This document shows, one piece after another, positions 56,150 through 63,899 of a stretch of DNA of 64,000 bases. The stretch comes from Phycisphaeraceae bacterium (lineage in GTDB: Bacteria; Planctomycetota; Phycisphaerae; Phycisphaerales; UBA1924). Each line of letters opens with the position of its first letter. Positions within the stretch are counted from its first letter, which is position 1. Both the position numbers and the translations under genes were made by a program. The notes beneath the pieces were generated by a model. It did no database searches, was not told the origin of the DNA, and was given only the letters and a program-made list of their open reading frames with translations. The DNA lies in contig JAHCJI010000001.1 in NCBI GenBank assembly GCA_026126305.1, positions 496,001 through 560,000 of the forward strand. The letters are read 5' to 3'.

Positions 56150-56731
56150 TTACCCGCCCCCGAACAGCCGACCCTCCACGCCCTCCACCAGCGCGTGCAG
56201 CACCAGCATGTGGACCTCCTGGATCCGATCCGCCGTGGGCGCAGCCGCTGGCACGCCGGGCACGATCCATTCCAGGTCGCACACGCCCGCCAGCCTGCCG
56301 CCGTCGCGCCCCAGCAGGCCGATGGTCTGCATGCTTGCCTGACGCGCCGCGGCCACCGCGCGGACGACATTTTCGGAGTTGCCGCTGGTGCTCAGCGCCA
56401 CCAGCACGTCTCCCGGCCGGCCCAACGCCCGCACGCCGCGGGCGAAGACCTCGTCATATCCATAGTCGTTGGCCACACAGGTGATATGCCCCACGTCCGT
56501 CAGGCTGATAGCCGCCAGCGGGGGGCGGTCGTTGCGGAATCGCCCAGTCAGTTCCTCGCAGAAGTGCATGGCGTCGCACGCCGAACCGCCGTTGCCGCAT
56601 GCCAGCACCTTGCCCCCGTCTCGCAGGGCCTGCGCGAGCATGTCGGCTGCCAGATCGAGCGTGGTGGCGTTGCGTCCATCGGCCAGGAATGCCTCGATGG
56701 CCAGCCGCGCGTTGTGGAAGGCCTCGATCAC
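56150..56731 (-). CDS. gmhA: Sedoheptulose-7-phosphate isomerase-type SIS protein (GmhA)
   Basis: GmhA makes D-glycero-manno-heptose 7-phosphate for lipopolysaccharide heptose. The 193-residue protein has the SIS pattern: KVLACGNGGSACDAMHFCEE with the active Glu, DVLVALSTSGNSENVVRAVA, and the C-terminal His in RIQEVHMLVLHALVEGVEGR. It starts with GTG (56731), overlapping the smc stop as GTGA (56728-56731), so it is translated with smc. Its last 170 bp are duplicated 1035 bp downstream. A related SIS sugar isomerase is possible, but the length favours GmhA. Confidence 0.9.
   Translation of the reverse strand: MIEAFHNARLAIEAFLADGRNATTLDLAADMLAQALRDGGKVLACGNGGSACDAMHFCEELTGRFRNDRPPLAAISLTDVGHITCVANDYGYDEVFARGVRALGRPGDVLVALSTSGNSENVVRAVAAARQASMQTIGLLGRDGGRLAGVCDLEWIVPGVPAAAPTADRIQEVHMLVLHALVEGVEGRLFGGG
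56160..56328. repeat. 169-bp direct repeat, copy 2 (inside gmhA)
   Basis: This copy lies within the intact gmhA-type gene and has the sequence it needs to code for its C-terminus. It matches 55125-55293 with one mismatch. Beyond 56328 the two regions diverge, apart from a short ATGC match. Confidence 0.9.
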
Positions 56732-59700
56732 GATCCGCGGGCCTCCAACATCTCGGGTTCGTGCGATGCATCGGCTTCAACCCGCACGGGCTGGTTTTGC
56801 TTCAGGTGCGCCAGCGCGTCGCGCAGCGGGGGCTTGTGCCCATTGGGTTTCGGGGCGTCGTGCTTGGCCGACGAATCCACCGCCGCCGCGTGCAGCTTGC
56901 CATCGGCGCCCACCTGGTCGAAGCGCACGCCCACGCGTGTCGACACGCCACGCTCCTGCATCGTCACCCCGTGCAGGCGATCGCACATGGCCATCGTCTT
57001 CTTATGGTGGGTGATGACGATGAAGTTGCTCTTCTCGCTGAACTGGCGCACGACGCGGCTGAAGCGGTCGACGTTCGCGTCGTCCAGCGCGGCGTCCACC
57101 TCGTCGAGCACGCAGAAGCAACTGGGCTTGCTCTGGAAGATCGCCAGCAGCAGCGCCACCGCCGTCATCGCCTTCTCGCCGCCGCTGAGCTGGCTGATCG
57201 ATCGCGGCTGCTTGCCGGGCGGGCGGGCCACGATCTCGATCCCGCTCTCGAGCAAGTCCACTTCGTCGGTGACGATCTTCTGCCCGTCCACTTCGCGCAC
57301 CAGCGGCATGAGCTTGATCTCGGCTCGCCCACCACCAAACAACTGGCGGAACAGCCCGTCGTCGCCCGCGAAACTCTCGCGCACGCGTTCGAGCATATCG
57401 CCGAAGCGGTGCCGGCTGGCCTCGTTGAGTTGCGTGATGAGCGTCTCCAGCCGCAGGCGGGCCTGGTCGATGTCCTGGACCTGGGCGGCCAGTTGCTCGT
57501 TCTTGCCGGCCAGTTGGCCCTCTTCTTCCATCGCCGCCAGGTTCACGCTTCCCAGGCGATCGATGGCCGCCTTGAGGGTGCGGATGGCCTCGTCGGCCTC
57601 GGCGTCGCCCACGGCCCGCATGACGCCCGCGTCGTCTTCGCCCAGCGCCGCGCGATAGCCGATCAGTTCCGCGTCCAGGTCCAGCCCGTCCTCGTCCATC
57701 GTTCGCTGGACGAGGTTTTCCAGGCGAATCTCGGCCTCGCGCCCGCGCAGTTCCAGGTCGTGCCAGCGCTTCTCGACTTCGCCGGCCGCACGCCGGGCCG
57801 CGTCGAATCGTCGTTCCAGCCCCAGCGATGCCTCCTGGGCCGTGTGCAAGGCGGCGCGTTTGGTATCGATCCCCGCGAGGACCGCCTGGGCGGTGGCCTG
57901 CTGCGCCTCGATGCGTTCCTGGGCTTCCAGCGCCGCCTGCTGGTGCTGCTGGGCCTGCTCGCGGGCGCGTTGCACGTGCGACGCCAGGTCTCGCTGGCTG
58001 GCGCGCAGGCGGGCCGCCTCGTCGCGACGGGCCGAGGCCTCGCGCCGCGCCGCGCCCAACTGCTCGCCCAGCGTGCCCGCAGACACCCGCGCCACCGTCA
58101 ACGCCTCTCCCAGCGAGTCGGCGTCCTTCTCGGCCTGTTCGACCGAAGTCGCCAGGGCTTCGAGCGATCGCCGCTCGTCGTGCAGGATGCTCTCCAGCGA
58201 TGCCAGTTTGTGCTCCAGGTCTGCCACCTTGTCGCGGGCCTGCGACGCGCTGGTCTGGGCAGACTCGCACTCGTCCTGGGCCCGTTGCCGCTGACGCTCA
58301 AGCCGCGAGAGTTCGTCGCCGGCGCGTTCGGCCTCGCCCTGGGCTTTCAGGCCCGCCTGCGAGAGCTCGTTGAGCACCCGCTGAAGGGCCGTCTGCCGTT
58401 CGGCCAGGTCTCCCGCCCGTTGGTCGAGCGAGCGAAGCGTTGCCTGCGCGTGTGCCAGCGCACGGGTTGCCGTTTCGAGGTCGAGCGTCAGTTGTTCCAG
58501 CTCGGCGCGGCGCTGCAACACGCCCATCGCGGGCGTGCCGTCCTCGCTACCGGCGGTCAGTGGCCCCGCGCTGACGATGCCCGGATGCCGCAGCACGCTG
58601 GCGCCATCGTCGATGAACGTTGCTCCCCGCAGTGGCCCCGCCGCCAGCAGCGAAGCCGCCGACAGGTCGCCCGTCCGCCAGCAGTCGTGCAGCAGCACGT
58701 CCAAGAGCCCCGACACCGATGCCGCATCCACGCCCGCGGCCCGGCAGGCGGCCTCGTCGACACGGGCCACCTCGCGCAGGGGAAGCAGCCGGCCAGATGC
58801 ACGCAACGCCGCAAACCCGGCATGATCGTGGCGCTCGTTCATCGCGGGCACGCCCAGCCCCAGCGGCACGAAGGTCACCCGTCCGCTGAGGGTCTGGAGT
58901 TCCTCGTGCGTGGGCATCGCCTCGAGCGAGGGCACCACCAACGCCGACAGCAACGCACCCAGGGCCGCTTCCACCGGGGCCGCGTGCTCCAGCGGTACGC
59001 GCACCAGTTCGGCCAGCGGGGCGATGACCGTCGCGAAGCCTTCGCCACGCGCCGATCGCTCGAGCACCTCGCGTGCTGGCTGTCCCAGACCCTCACGAGA
59101 GGCCAGCAACTCCGACACCGCGTGGTGCCGCGTCTCCAGGCGCAGCCGACGCTCTTCCAGCGCCTTGACCTCTCCCGCCTGCTTCGATCGGCCCTCGCCC
59201 AGTGAGGCCGACTCACGCTCCAGGCGCTCGGCCTCGCCGGTGCGTTCCCCGTGCTCGTGCGACAGCCGAGCGACCTCTGCCAGCGCGCCGTCGCGACGCT
59301 GCGAGGCACCACGCGCTTCGTCCTCGAGCGAAGACAACTCCGAACGGGACCGCTCGATCTTCTCGGCCAACTGCTCGGCCCGTCGCTGCTCCTCGGCGAT
59401 GCGTGCCCCGGCCGAAAGCTGGTCACGCTCGATGCGCTCCACCTCGCGCCGCTTCTCGGCCAGTGACTGGCGATGGCCGGCCACCGCCTGCTGCGCCCGC
59501 TGACGAGCCTGCGAGGCCTGCTCGAGCACGCGCTCGGCGTCTGCCAACTGCTCGGCCAGGGCCGCCACGCGTTCGGCGGCACGCTCGGCCTGAGACTCGG
59601 ACGCTTCGGCGGAACGCTCCACTAGGGCCAGACGCTGCCCGTCGGCGTCCAGCCGGTCGAGCGCTTCCTGGGCCGAACGCTGGGCCAGCTCACGCTGGTG

Positions 59701-60735
59701 CCGGGCGCGCTCGAGCGATTGGTTCGCTTCGGCCAGTTGCGCTTCGGTCTCGCGCAGGGCTCGGGCTGCCTCGTGGCGCGACAGTTCCGCTTCCTGGCGT
59801 ACCTTCTCCAACGCGCCAAGATCGGCCTCGGCGGCATCCCGCTCGGCCCGGGCCCGCTGCATGTCTGCGTGGATGCGCTCCACCGCGGTGGTCAGCGCGT
59901 CGTGCTGGGCCAGCGCCCGGGCCGCTCGCCAGGCCTTCAACTCCGCGTCCAGTTCCACGAACTGCCGCGCCTTGGCCGCCTGCCCGCGCACGATCTTCAG
60001 CCGGCGCTCGGTGTTGGCCAGTTGCTCGCGTGTCACCGCCAGGTTGCGTTCGGCCCGGTCGAGCTTGCGGAGCGCCTCGACCCGGCGCTGGCGATACCGC
60101 GCGATGCCAGCCGCCTCTTCGAAGATCGTCCGACGCTCCTGCGGGTTGGCCAGCAGCATCGCGTCCACGCGACCCTGCTCGATGATCGAGTACGCGTCGG
60201 CACCCACCCCCGTGTCCAGGAACAGGTCGCGGATGTCCTTCAGGCGGCACCGCTTCCCGTTGATCAGGTACTGGCTGCCCCCGTCGCGGTACAAGCGACG
60301 CTCCACCTCCACGATGTCCGAATCCACCGGCAGCCCGCGACGCACCGTCCGCCGGTCGGCGATGATGCCCGCGCCCTCCTCGTCGGGCTCCAGTTCCTCG
60401 CCGTCGTCGTCCAGGTCGTCCACCGTCGGGCCGCCCTCTGTGATGGGGTCGGCCTGGGGCAGCGAAGGCAGGATCGGGTTTTCAAAAGTCAGCGTGACAC
60501 TGGCCATGCCCGCGGGCTTGCGCGCCGCCGAACCGGCGAAGATGACATCGAGCATCTCTTTGCCGCGAAGGCTCTTGCTGCTGCGCTCGCCCAGCACCCA
60601 CTTCAGGGCGTCCACCACGTTGCTCTTGCCGCAGCCGTTGGGCCCCACGATGCCCGTCACCGGGTCGTCGAAGCGAAACTCCGTTCGGTCGTCGAACGAC
60701 TTGAAACCATTGAGCGTCAACTTCGCAAGCCGCAT
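56728..60735 (-). CDS. smc: Chromosome segregation SMC protein
   Basis: SMC is the ATPase of the condensin complex that arranges and separates chromosomes. The 1335-residue protein has Walker A (GIVGPNGCGKSNVVDALKWV) near residue 30, long coiled-coil arms, a hinge region near the middle and the C-terminal head with ISQLSGGEKAMTAVALLLAI and CVLDEVDAALDDANVDRF. There is an acidic insert near 105 (DDLDDDGEELEPDEEG). A tail of about 75 residues follows the head. Longer than the usual 1150-1200. AGGAGG is 4 bases before the ATG at 60735. Its stop overlaps the gmhA start. Confidence 0.96.
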   Translation of the reverse strand: MRLAKLTLNGFKSFDDRTEFRFDDPVTGIVGPNGCGKSNVVDALKWVLGERSSKSLRGKEMLDVIFAGSAARKPAGMASVTLTFENPILPSLPQADPITEGGPTVDDLDDDGEELEPDEEGAGIIADRRTVRRGLPVDSDIVEVERRLYRDGGSQYLINGKRCRLKDIRDLFLDTGVGADAYSIIEQGRVDAMLLANPQERRTIFEEAAGIARYRQRRVEALRKLDRAERNLAVTREQLANTERRLKIVRGQAAKARQFVELDAELKAWRAARALAQHDALTTAVERIHADMQRARAERDAAEADLGALEKVRQEAELSRHEAARALRETEAQLAEANQSLERARHQRELAQRSAQEALDRLDADGQRLALVERSAEASESQAERAAERVAALAEQLADAERVLEQASQARQRAQQAVAGHRQSLAEKRREVERIERDQLSAGARIAEEQRRAEQLAEKIERSRSELSSLEDEARGASQRRDGALAEVARLSHEHGERTGEAERLERESASLGEGRSKQAGEVKALEERRLRLETRHHAVSELLASREGLGQPAREVLERSARGEGFATVIAPLAELVRVPLEHAAPVEAALGALLSALVVPSLEAMPTHEELQTLSGRVTFVPLGLGVPAMNERHDHAGFAALRASGRLLPLREVARVDEAACRAAGVDAASVSGLLDVLLHDCWRTGDLSAASLLAAGPLRGATFIDDGASVLRHPGIVSAGPLTAGSEDGTPAMGVLQRRAELEQLTLDLETATRALAHAQATLRSLDQRAGDLAERQTALQRVLNELSQAGLKAQGEAERAGDELSRLERQRQRAQDECESAQTSASQARDKVADLEHKLASLESILHDERRSLEALATSVEQAEKDADSLGEALTVARVSAGTLGEQLGAARREASARRDEAARLRASQRDLASHVQRAREQAQQHQQAALEAQERIEAQQATAQAVLAGIDTKRAALHTAQEASLGLERRFDAARRAAGEVEKRWHDLELRGREAEIRLENLVQRTMDEDGLDLDAELIGYRAALGEDDAGVMRAVGDAEADEAIRTLKAAIDRLGSVNLAAMEEEGQLAGKNEQLAAQVQDIDQARLRLETLITQLNEASRHRFGDMLERVRESFAGDDGLFRQLFGGGRAEIKLMPLVREVDGQKIVTDEVDLLESGIEIVARPPGKQPRSISQLSGGEKAMTAVALLLAIFQSKPSCFCVLDEVDAALDDANVDRFSRVVRQFSEKSNFIVITHHKKTMAMCDRLHGVTMQERGVSTRVGVRFDQVGADGKLHAAAVDSSAKHDAPKPNGHKPPLRDALAHLKQNQPVRVEADASHEPEMLEARGS

Positions 60736-60855
60736 CGGACCTCCTGTCCCCGACAGACACCCGCGGGCCTCCTGCCCGCCGTGCCACAGTATCGGCCTGC
60801 CCACGCCGGAGACGTGGGATTCTTCGGGCCCGCGTCCGCCCGCGTGCGGGGGTTA

Positions 60856-62841
60856 TCAGCCCTGCTCGTTGCCGCCCTCGATGGTGCGCCTCAGATAGTC
60901 CTGGAGCGGGTCGATGCCCGTCTCGGGGGAACTGTCGGTCTCGGGACGGTCGGCGGCGGTGCCTCGGGTCTGGCGATCGACGCCCTCGCGCAAAATGCTG
61001 CGTTCCACCTGCCACTGTGCCTTGATTGCCCCCGACTCCGAGAGCCGCGAGAGGATCGTGACGATCTGCCCGAAGTTGAGCCCCAGCCCACCCAGCGGCC
61101 GCTCGATCGTCGGCTTGGTGGCCAGGAACTCGATGAACTCCACGACGTTCGATGGCGCGTCGGGCACGGTCACCAGCCAGTCGGCCGACCGGTGGCGATA
61201 ACGGATACGCACGTCGCGGCCCGAGGGGTCGCTCAGCTCCGAGCCCGCCTCGGCCCGGGCCATCAGGAACTCGCCATCTTCCAGCCGCAACACCGACCCG
61301 GGCTCGATGTGCAGGTCTTCGCCGAAGATGACCAGCCCGGCCGTGCCCTGCTGTCGCAGGAACATGAGCGGTTTGCCGATGGGCACCCGATCGATGACGA
61401 AGCCTCCGGGCATGATGTCGCGTTGCAGGCCCAGACTGGCATTGCCACGGAACTGTCGTCGGGCGGCCTCGGACCAGTCCCGCAGCACGCCAACGCGGTC
61501 GACGCCTGGGGGAATGCGGCCTTGTTCCAGTATGCTCCGCAGCTCGCGCATGCCCGCTCGGCGGACCATGGCCTCGTACGCGGCCACTCGCACCGAGACC
61601 AGTTCGTGCCCGGCCAAGTCCTGGAGCGTGGCGTCGATCATCGGGCCGATGCCCAGTTCGCCCAGCAACTCCAATGCCTGGATCTGGAGATCCGGGTTGC
61701 CGCTTCGGGCCAGCTGGACGAGCGGCCGCTCGGCCCTTGGGTCTCCCAGTCTGGCACCGACGCGCAAGGCCGCCAGACGCGGGGCGATCTCGGGCCACTC
61801 GTACAACGAGCCGACGTTGGTGGGGCCTTCGATGGCTACCGGGCCCATGGCCTCGAGCGCCCAGGCGATGCGATCGGCGAAGGCGGGCTCTTCCTTCATA
61901 GCCTGGATATACCGGCCCACGGTGCGCTCTTCGCGACCCTCGGCATCGGGGTTGATGTTGGCTACCAGACGCAGGAAGTCGCCCGGGCGGTCCTTGTACT
62001 CCCAGGGGATGCGCAAGGTGACCAGCGAGCTTTCGGCCTCTCCCCGGCCGACAAGCCGACCGCCGGCGATGTCGCCCCGTTCCAGGGGAGAACTGCCGAA
62101 ACGGGCATTGATGAGTTGGGAAATGGCCCGTGCCCGCCTGGGGCTTGGCACATTGAGGCGAATGGCTAACTCCAGCGGATTGGTCATGACCCCGCCGCCG
62201 ATGACCCGGCCTTGCGAAGGGTTGGCACGGGAACCGGTGGCAAAGGGATTGACATAGACCTGGCCTTGGGCGAAGCCGATCTGCCGGGCACGCAAGGCCC
62301 CCTGGACGGCCGGACGTCCAAGTCGCATATCGGTGCGCCAGAGTTGTCCGCCCGAGAGGTCCTCGTTGTTGAGTGCGAAGACCAGCACGTCGAAGGTGGA
62401 GCCGCGCGGGGCCCCCGGGGCCACCAGGGCAAGGAGCGCTACCACTGCCACGTCGCTGCGCCGCAGGAAGCTCTCGGCGCTCTCGCCCTCGAACATCGTG
62501 CCGTAGAACATGTCCACCCCGCGGGCACCCTCGCGCAGCGACAAGTCGCGGATGATGGTGGCCTCGATGTCCGGGCGCAGCGGGCCGCCTCGGCCTCGGA
62601 CGCCCACGACCACGCCCAGCCCGCCCACGAGCACGGGGTCGGCCCCGACGAGCGTGGCCGATGCGCCCACGGTGCCGCGGAGCACGCTCGGGCCGTCGAA
62701 GGGCACGATGACACCGCCGCCGGGCGTGACGACGGTGCCCCTGGACTTGCAGCCGGGCGTCGCGGCGGTGAGCATCACCAGCACCGCCAAGGCGAGCAGG
62801 ACGGCCAAGGGACGGGCGGGCGCTGGCAAGTGTCGGGCCAT
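60856..62841 (-). CDS. FlgI-related lipoprotein with added repeat-like C-terminus
   Basis: The 661-residue protein has a lipoprotein-like signal (LAVLVMLTAATPGCKSRG). The region about 35-260 recalls the flagellar P-ring protein FlgI (VGGLGVVVGVRGRGGPLRPD, LVAPGAPRGSTFDVLVFALN, GQVYVNPFATGSRANPSQGR, GGGVMTNPLELAIRLNVPSP). FlgI is normally about 360 residues and not a lipoprotein; here about 400 more follow, with HEAT-like helical repeats (IAPRLAALRVGARLGDPRAE; PDLQIQALELLGELGIGPMI) and a beta-rich end. No flagellar genes are in the window. GGAGG lies 10 bases before the ATG. Confidence 0.85.
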   Translation of the reverse strand: MARHLPAPARPLAVLLALAVLVMLTAATPGCKSRGTVVTPGGGVIVPFDGPSVLRGTVGASATLVGADPVLVGGLGVVVGVRGRGGPLRPDIEATIIRDLSLREGARGVDMFYGTMFEGESAESFLRRSDVAVVALLALVAPGAPRGSTFDVLVFALNNEDLSGGQLWRTDMRLGRPAVQGALRARQIGFAQGQVYVNPFATGSRANPSQGRVIGGGVMTNPLELAIRLNVPSPRRARAISQLINARFGSSPLERGDIAGGRLVGRGEAESSLVTLRIPWEYKDRPGDFLRLVANINPDAEGREERTVGRYIQAMKEEPAFADRIAWALEAMGPVAIEGPTNVGSLYEWPEIAPRLAALRVGARLGDPRAERPLVQLARSGNPDLQIQALELLGELGIGPMIDATLQDLAGHELVSVRVAAYEAMVRRAGMRELRSILEQGRIPPGVDRVGVLRDWSEAARRQFRGNASLGLQRDIMPGGFVIDRVPIGKPLMFLRQQGTAGLVIFGEDLHIEPGSVLRLEDGEFLMARAEAGSELSDPSGRDVRIRYRHRSADWLVTVPDAPSNVVEFIEFLATKPTIERPLGGLGLNFGQIVTILSRLSESGAIKAQWQVERSILREGVDRQTRGTAADRPETDSSPETGIDPLQDYLRRTIEGGNEQG

Positions 62842-63213
62842 CAGGGGGAAACCTCCGTCGAGAATCGCGTAGCGGGGCAGCCTCACTTTACGGGCCATCC
62901 ACCACATTGCTGCATGAGCCCGGGTGATCTCGTGAGGATAGACTAGCCGTGTTCGGAATCCACTCGGCTTTTGGGCATTCTGGACGGCTTTCGAGACGGT
63001 CTCGAGCGTTCGGAGATAAAGAAATGGGCAGAATGGGAAGGAATCCACAGGATGATGTATAGGGGTTTTCGAGAACCACCATCTGTCGGGTGCTGTCGTT
63101 TTTGTTGTCGTCTATGTGTGGGTTGTTGGGCTAAGTCTGGGCAAGGGCGTCATTTAGGCGGCCTTGTTCGAGAGCGACAGGTTGTCCATACTCCATATTG
63201 TGGCAAAAAAGTG
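62842..63213. other. Gene-less upstream region of dcd
   Basis: This stretch is AT-richer than its surroundings and has no credible coding frame. It contains several TGGG/GTGGG motifs, for example TGTGGGTTGTTGGGC, spaced irregularly. Both flanking genes start away from it (the FlgI-like gene on the minus strand from 62841, dcd on the plus strand from 63324). A promoter for the FlgI-like gene should lie here but was not identified. Confidence 0.5.
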
Positions 63214-63242
63214 TTGCGTCCACGAATTGTAGTGGGTAGAGT
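63214..63242 (+). promoter_or_regulatory. Candidate sigma-70-like promoter for dcd
   Basis: TTGCGT (63214-63219) and TAGAGT (63237-63242) are 17 bases apart, about 80 bp upstream of the dcd start codon, and a TTGTGG/A-rich block precedes them. Spacing is ideal and both hexamers are moderate. Confidence 0.4.
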
Positions 63243-63323
63243 GGGGGCACCGATATTTGTTCCCGGCGGGTGGGCCGGTGCACCCGTCGGGCTCTGGGGC
63301 GTACCCAATAGGAAGGACCCGCG

Positions 63324-63899
63324 ATGACCGTGCTGTGCGATGAACAGATCAGGGCCCTGGTTCGCATCGAGCCCTTCGAGAAGGGCGAGCGGCGGCCCGG
63401 GAAGATCTCCTACGGCGTGTCGAGCTATGGCTACGACGTGCGGGTGGGCCCGACCTTTAAGATCTTCACGCCCACGCCCAAGAGCGGGGGCATCACGGTG
63501 GTGGACCCCAAGAATTTCACCGACGACCTGTTCGTGGAGGTGAACTGCGAGGCCCACGGCACCGACCACGTCATCATCCCCCCCAACAGCTTCGCGCTGT
63601 GCGAGACGGTGGAGTTCTTCGAGATCCCCCGAGACTGCCTGGTGATCTGCGTCGGCAAGAGCACGTACGCGCGGTGTGGGCTCATTGTGAACGTGACGCC
63701 GTTGGAGCCGGAGTGGCGGGGGAAGATCACGCTTGAGATCAGCAACACGACGCCGTTGCCTGCGCGGGTTTACGCGAACGAGGGGATTGCGCAGCTCGTG
63801 TTCCTGAAGGCCGACCAAGTGTGTGCGGTGAGCTACGCGGATAAGGCTGGGAAGTATCAGGATCAGGTTGGGTTGACGTTGCCGAAGGTGGATCAGTGA
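63324..63899 (+). CDS. dcd: dCTP deaminase
   Basis: Dcd converts dCTP to dUTP, which dUTPase (dut at 49224) then turns into dUMP for thymidylate. The 191-residue protein shows [40 protein letters not shown], the substrate-binding [20 protein letters not shown] and [20 protein letters not shown] with the catalytic Glu. Ordinary bacterial monofunctional length. GGAAGGA lies before the ATG. The last 100 bases of the window contain no gene I can support. Confidence 0.95.

Follow-up and report, generated by a model that had tools for sequence, protein, structure and literature searches.

The Phycisphaeraceae genome studied here encodes, in addition to a canonical flagellar P-ring protein FlgI, a long FlgI-HEAT lipoprotein, which is a separate paralogue of FlgI and is kept in 42 Planctomycetota genomes with no match to the L-ring protein FlgH. 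We found its gene in a window of 64,000 nucleotides (the whole stretch of DNA that was analyzed), at positions 60856..62841 of the minus strand. An earlier note on this DNA had described a long FlgI-related reading frame lying next to smc and dcd and not to flagellar genes, and our analysis confirms both points. The reading frame is intact and codes for 661 amino acids plus stop; the open frame of the canonical FlgI from the same genome has 384 amino acids (355 when trimmed). The smc gene for the chromosome segregation ATPase (56728..60735, minus strand; TIGR02168, 813 bits with a cut-off of 567) begins downstream on the same strand, its ATG lying 120 nt past the stop codon of the lipoprotein gene. 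It is of the ordinary bacterial type and represents the sole SMC-length frame among nine SMC_N matches in the genome. On the other side, dcd (dCTP deaminase) forms a divergent neighbor at 63324..63899 on the plus strand (TIGR02274, 144.6 bits, cut-off 93), and no flagellar gene adjoins the lipoprotein gene in the window. A gmhA-like gene for a sedoheptulose-7-phosphate isomerase follows smc at about 56150..56731 on the minus strand (TIGR00441, 209.9 bits, cut-off 209.45), and its first few bases overlap the end of smc. This overlap suggests a lipoprotein-smc-gmhA operon in the window and in two close loci. Scans of positions 60600-63330 returned no promoter-like element (mean of 0.3 in shuffled sequences) and two terminator-like elements (mean of 1.4), neither count being clearly above the shuffles.

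The protein had been called a probable lipoprotein, and this assignment is supported. Residues 1-30 form a hydrophobic signal peptide (62752..62841, minus strand), which is directly followed by the lipidation residue Cys-31 (codon 62749-62751). The corresponding alignment column holds cysteine in 44 of 44 homologues, and the small residue preceding it at position -1 is glycine, alanine or serine in all 44, a regularity that is in part due to selection, as homologue start codons were picked with the cysteine in view. The -3 and -2 residues of the window protein (Thr and Pro) are atypical for a lipoprotein signal. In Escherichia coli, a residue other than aspartate after the lipidated cysteine points to the outer membrane. 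Aspartate is found in this position in only 2 of the 44 homologues, and judged from the sequences its rarity points to an outer membrane location by the E. coli rule, which may not hold in planctomycetes.

We compared the predicted structure of the protein to FlgI, a check proposed in the earlier note, and FlgI is the best match for both its first and its last part. An AlphaFold2 model calculated with 44 homologues (pLDDT 87.3, pTM 0.84) has an N-terminal FlgI-like part with the domains FlgI-IRU and FlgI-OR (residues 53-299; 61945..62685, minus strand; HHalign probability 99.7), for which FlgI chains of the flagellar LP ring are the best structural matches. Residues 56-299 of the model align with FlgI residues 20-245 in 7nvg_r3 (Z 13.8, 200 aligned residues), and the rmsd of 8.8 may indicate that the domains are placed differently relative to each other in the two structures. 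Foldseek matches the FlgI chain 7bgl_a with an E of 3.4e-12, and Pfam FlgI (PF02119) covers residues 67-296 (E 1.6e-10, 40.9 bits, cut-off 25.3). The helical repeats noted before are present as well. They form a HEAT solenoid of residues about 300-444 (61510..61944, minus strand) with structural matches to alphaRep and HEAT proteins, and Pfam HEAT_2 (PF13646) is found above its cut-off on residues 352-423 (E 3.4e-7). The solenoid measures 127-145 amino acids in all 84 sequences compared, and both PF02119 and HEAT_2 are detected in 44 of 44 aligned members (E up to 1).

The C-terminal domain (residues about 470-635; 60937..61434, minus strand) was folded alone with a pLDDT of 86.9. When 1000 chains were re-aligned to it, the top three all corresponded to FlgI residues 247-365 (Z 5.6, 4.6 and 4.5), with every other chain below 4; the best of these alignments spans 76 residues with an rmsd of 2.9. 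HHalign relates the isolated C-terminal part to canonical IRL domains with a probability of 90.6 using 84 sequences (pairwise E 1.3e-6) and of 91.8 using 40 distant sequences. The same region aligned to whole FlgI gave a probability of 9.6 over just 30 residues at the FlgI C terminus, no FlgI appeared among the best 50 Foldseek matches listed for this domain (best E 0.18), and a PDB profile search with the C-terminal profile did not find FlgI. FlgI is divided, in the portion of PMC8298488 consulted, into OR (residues 1-11 and 160-230, mature numbering), IRU (12-159) and IRL (231-346), and from these borders it follows that our N-terminal alignment stops, and our C-terminal alignment starts, near the OR/IRL junction. 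The protein probably has a complete FlgI fold that is interrupted at this junction by a HEAT solenoid, and the C-terminal domain is probably FlgI's own third domain (IRL), displaced by the insert. A FlgI half joined to an unrelated tail and missing the IRL, as suggested by the Pfam and whole-model searches, was dropped after the C-terminal domain had been folded and aligned separately. The first half is indeed FlgI-like, as the earlier note stated, but the likeness is not confined to it: the beta-rich end described there exists and probably represents the IRL domain.

The genome was searched for flagellar genes and for a canonical flgI, also at the suggestion of the earlier note. We located a canonical FlgI (C18:182002-183006, E 2.9e-54) together with FlgH (C18:183148-183660) and FlgA (C18:183918-184214) beside it. 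The long protein is therefore not the sole FlgI of its genome, the case that would have spoken for a function as the P-ring. A quick tree was built from 255 columns of the N-terminal part that both groups share, and in it a single branch (SH-aLRT 100) separates 84 long from 21 canonical proteins. The long protein is a paralogue separate from canonical FlgI. The column of the rod-contacting Lys-63 contains lysine or arginine in only 16 of 84 long proteins, where proline is most frequent, compared with 16 of 21 canonical ones. Lys-95 is non-discriminating, because lysine occupies this column in 3 of 84 long proteins and in just 5 of 21 canonical ones, and so are the NCBIfam FlgI subfamily and equivalog models, for which the long protein scores 28.8 bits (cut-off 300) and 13.1 bits (cut-off 557) and the canonical protein of the same genome likewise stays below (161.7 and 82.2 bits). 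The long protein thus shares with FlgI (PF02119; 7bgl, 7nvg, 7cbl, 8z5n) the IRU and OR domains, seen in both sequence and structural comparisons, a probable IRL domain and an export signal, and differs from it by the HEAT solenoid at the OR/IRL junction, the lipid anchor and the lack of flagellar neighbors. The inserted solenoid resembles HEAT-repeat proteins and designed alphaRep proteins, but unlike in these, it sits inside an exported FlgI fold.

We next consider how the long protein is distributed in Planctomycetota. A homologue is present in 58 of 61 genomes (our genome and 60 relatives), and was not found in the other three (G027, G031 and G033). The FliF family PF08345 was tried as a flagellar marker and rejected: it matched 43 of the 61 genomes and missed 13 that have FlgH, and FlgH was taken as the marker for this reason. 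FlgH is missing in six of the 61 genomes, and the same six have the long protein as their only FlgI-family match. One genome without FlgH (G028) keeps a FliF match, and here as elsewhere the absence of FlgH may come from an incomplete assembly. In a survey of 393 Planctomycetota genomes with a completeness of 90% or more, the profile of the long protein matches 359 at an E of up to 0.001, many of these matches being weak and probably caused by canonical FlgI or HEAT proteins. Strong matches (E up to 1e-40; the next best is 1.3e-21) occur in 199 genomes, with 77 belonging to the order of the window, 24 to the rest of its class and 98 lying outside the class. All but one (G371, with a weak match) of the 102 sampled genomes of the class have a strong match. 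FlgH is found in 255 of the 393 genomes, 157 of which are among the 199 with a strong match; the other 98 have FlgH but no strong match, so the lipoprotein is not universal in the phylum.

The remaining 42 of the 199 genomes keep the long protein with no FlgH match, and it thus does not occur only with flagellar LP-ring genes. PF02119 matches the long protein in each of these 42 genomes and nothing else in 41, and an intact canonical FlgI was found in none of them (E up to 0.001). For the 12 genomes beyond the best-listed matches, all 12 PF02119 matches fall in a frame that the long-protein profile also detects, with E values no higher than 1.9e-49. FlgA (PF13144) is present in 14 of 14 FlgH-bearing genomes tested, but only in 6 of the 42, with five of the six matches weak. 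The exception is G250, with a strong FlgA match and a short remnant of a canonical flgI. Its locus (L157; G250:C62:10000-19000) has a flgA-like gene beside a 142-residue frame that matches just both ends of the FlgI profile, and is apparently a decaying flagellar cluster. Because FlgH, canonical FlgI and mostly also FlgA were not found in the 42 genomes, the long protein must have another task there. Its independence of the flagellum is well supported by its retention without FlgH, which was confirmed in the 12 further genomes, and an envelope lipoprotein with a task other than that of the P-ring, as the earlier note had supposed, is supported by this retention together with the separate canonical FlgI. 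In practical terms, the presence of a flagellum cannot be read from a FlgI domain match in a planctomycete genome, since these 42 genomes show such a match.

We analyzed the gene neighborhood in 62 loci that each span about 13 to 22 kb and were chosen for spread. Of these, 22 come from the genome itself, its order and the class record L006, and the other 40 are distributed over the order, class and phylum. In 50 of the 62, the lipoprotein gene is followed by smc on the same strand. The distance from the lipoprotein stop to the smc start, with starts guessed by pattern, ranges from 11 to 413 nt for 48 of these 50; it is 2781 nt in L051 (G048), and in L044 the start motif is misplaced and the frames abut. 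No neighbor family other than smc reaches more than 8 of the 62 loci, with the dcd family present in seven and the gmhA-like family found beside smc in three (L004, L006 and L037). In a systematic sample of every second of the best-scoring 150 genomes, which favors the order and class of the window, all 75 genomes have smc; in 56 it follows the lipoprotein gene on the same strand at a distance of no more than 3.5 kb, and in 19 it is located elsewhere, including G388 and G293, whose lipoprotein genes lie at contig ends and are uninformative. The pair is also kept in 8 of the 12 further genomes without FlgH (not in G209, G271, G331 and G390). Altogether, 32 of the 36 genomes read without FlgH retain it; the 36 comprise the 42 except for G058, G363, G201, G263, G373 and G414, and include six paired loci from the 62 (L040, L047, L053, L095, L107 and L110). 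A seemingly stronger pairing in genomes without FlgH (18 of 18 versus 38 of 57; Fisher p 0.004) was dropped after the result of 8 of 12 in the further genomes. The three genomes of the family f71 that were read (G271, G331 and G390; loci L161, L163 and L168) lack FlgH as well as an smc gene adjoining the lipoprotein gene, perhaps because of a single break of the pair within this family. In three class-level loci (L096, L095 and L097), two adjacent members of one family are located downstream of smc; the first residues of those in L096 resemble M16-type zinc peptidases.

We favor as the probable explanation that the long protein is a flagellum-independent FlgI paralogue acting as a lipid-anchored, peptidoglycan-facing scaffold of the FlgI fold, with no need for a rod, L-ring or FlgA. 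The protein would be lipidated after export and stay anchored at the outer membrane, with its OR domain resting on peptidoglycan. FlgI-OR is likened to secretin N3 and to peptidoglycan-binding domains such as those of OmpA and MotY in PMC8298488, and it is from this likeness that we infer an outer membrane-anchored scaffold on peptidoglycan; neither a secretin nor an OmpA family was among the Pfam matches of 44 members (E up to 1). By analogy to the 26-fold P-ring, the IRU and IRL domains of neighboring molecules may line up against one another to form a ring or an arc, and they would do so without rod, L-ring or FlgA. The HEAT solenoid would then project as an arm or docking site and recruit a partner. 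In the model it is placed between the P-ring-forming domains and might also block a closed ring. If the lipoprotein gene is indeed co-transcribed with smc, the supply of the lipoprotein would be linked to chromosome segregation. The HEAT insert, the lipid anchor, the retention without detectable flagellar ring genes and the usual position in front of smc suggest a previously unrecognized cell envelope structure. With a ring-forming fold, a gene often paired with smc, and an occurrence in nearly the whole sampled class as well as in many genomes outside, the protein is a candidate for the unusual envelope biology of planctomycetes.

Could the long protein instead be an accessory part of the flagellar motor, for example a basal disk or an additional P-ring, working together with the flagellum? 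Its homology to FlgI and the presence of FlgH in 157 of the 199 strong-match genomes are in line with such a role, but its retention in the 42 genomes without FlgH, the 98 FlgH-bearing genomes without a strong match, the lack of any neighbor family but smc in more than 8 of the 62 loci, and the frequent replacement of Lys-63 together render it highly improbable. We also judge it quite unlikely that the protein builds the ring of the crateriform structures. Many planctomycetes carry these SDS-resistant pits on their surface, as ring-like outer membrane assemblies specific to planctomycetes. Crateriform structures are outer membrane complexes that touch the inner membrane according to the consulted text of PMC5394234, and a single ring seen in SDS-boiled walls (PMC5287468, in part) is what one would expect of a P-ring-like assembly; the strong matches in 98 genomes outside the class would fit as well. 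However, described Phycisphaeraceae are reported to be without crateriform structures, or these were "not observed" in some, in the consulted parts of PMC7783415 and PMC8882080, and members of this family carry the FlgI-HEAT gene. The gene is thus not restricted to organisms with crateriform structures: it occurs in three strains of Phycisphaerae for which these structures were reported absent or were not observed, and whose identities we inferred as Poriferisphaera corsica (G340, L101), Mucisphaera calidilacus (G285, L104) and Phycisphaera mikurensis (G249, L100). The smc pair is present in the first two of these and absent in the third.

A plainer alternative is that the protein is a general tether between the outer membrane and peptidoglycan that forms no ring, and that the pairing with smc is an inherited operon without a functional link. 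The likening of FlgI-OR to peptidoglycan-binding domains (PMC8298488, as above) would suit a tether, and so would the location of the product outside the cytoplasm while Smc is cytoplasmic, and the position of smc away from the lipoprotein gene in 19 of 75 genomes and 4 of 12 further ones. Yet the pair persists in many families between which the other neighbors change, which fits a functional link without proving it, and we regard this alternative as rather unlikely, albeit with some chance of being correct. A more specific form of the scaffold reading assigns the protein an inferred role in division or segregation. Here, a lipid-anchored periplasmic ring or arc would sit where the envelope grows or constricts, its HEAT arms would recruit division or wall-remodeling partners, and the pair would couple synthesis to segregation. 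If true, a flagellar ring protein would have been recruited to bacterial cell division, but we consider this detailed scenario speculative and unlikely as it stands.

Planctomycetes are described as dividing without FtsZ in the consulted part of PMC10632474. We found FtsZ above cut-off in none of the 393 Planctomycetota genomes, and a link with smc and division is therefore attractive, if unproven; being below cut-off in all 393, FtsZ is uninformative as a predictor of where the long protein occurs. The main text of the same paper, a transposon-essentiality study of Planctopirus limnophila, contains none of the terms "flagell", "P-ring" or "smc" in the part consulted, and no published description of a FlgI-HEAT lipoprotein was found in full-text searches of a literature library on FlgI and the P-ring, planctomycetes and crateriform structures. 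Two proteins of the Tubulin/FtsZ superfamily came up in the FtsZ survey, one in G365 (L155:3954-5276, minus strand; Pfam Tubulin E 3.2e-9) and one in G199 (L156:3210-4526, plus strand; Pfam Tubulin E 4.4e-9), both with a weak TubZ-like match at the C terminus. Two further genomes of the same genus (G166 and G180) have similar weak FtsZ-profile matches, and G088 has a partial FtsZ-like match (C21:6286-6978, 56.1 bits, below cut-off) located in a frame of 377 amino acids.
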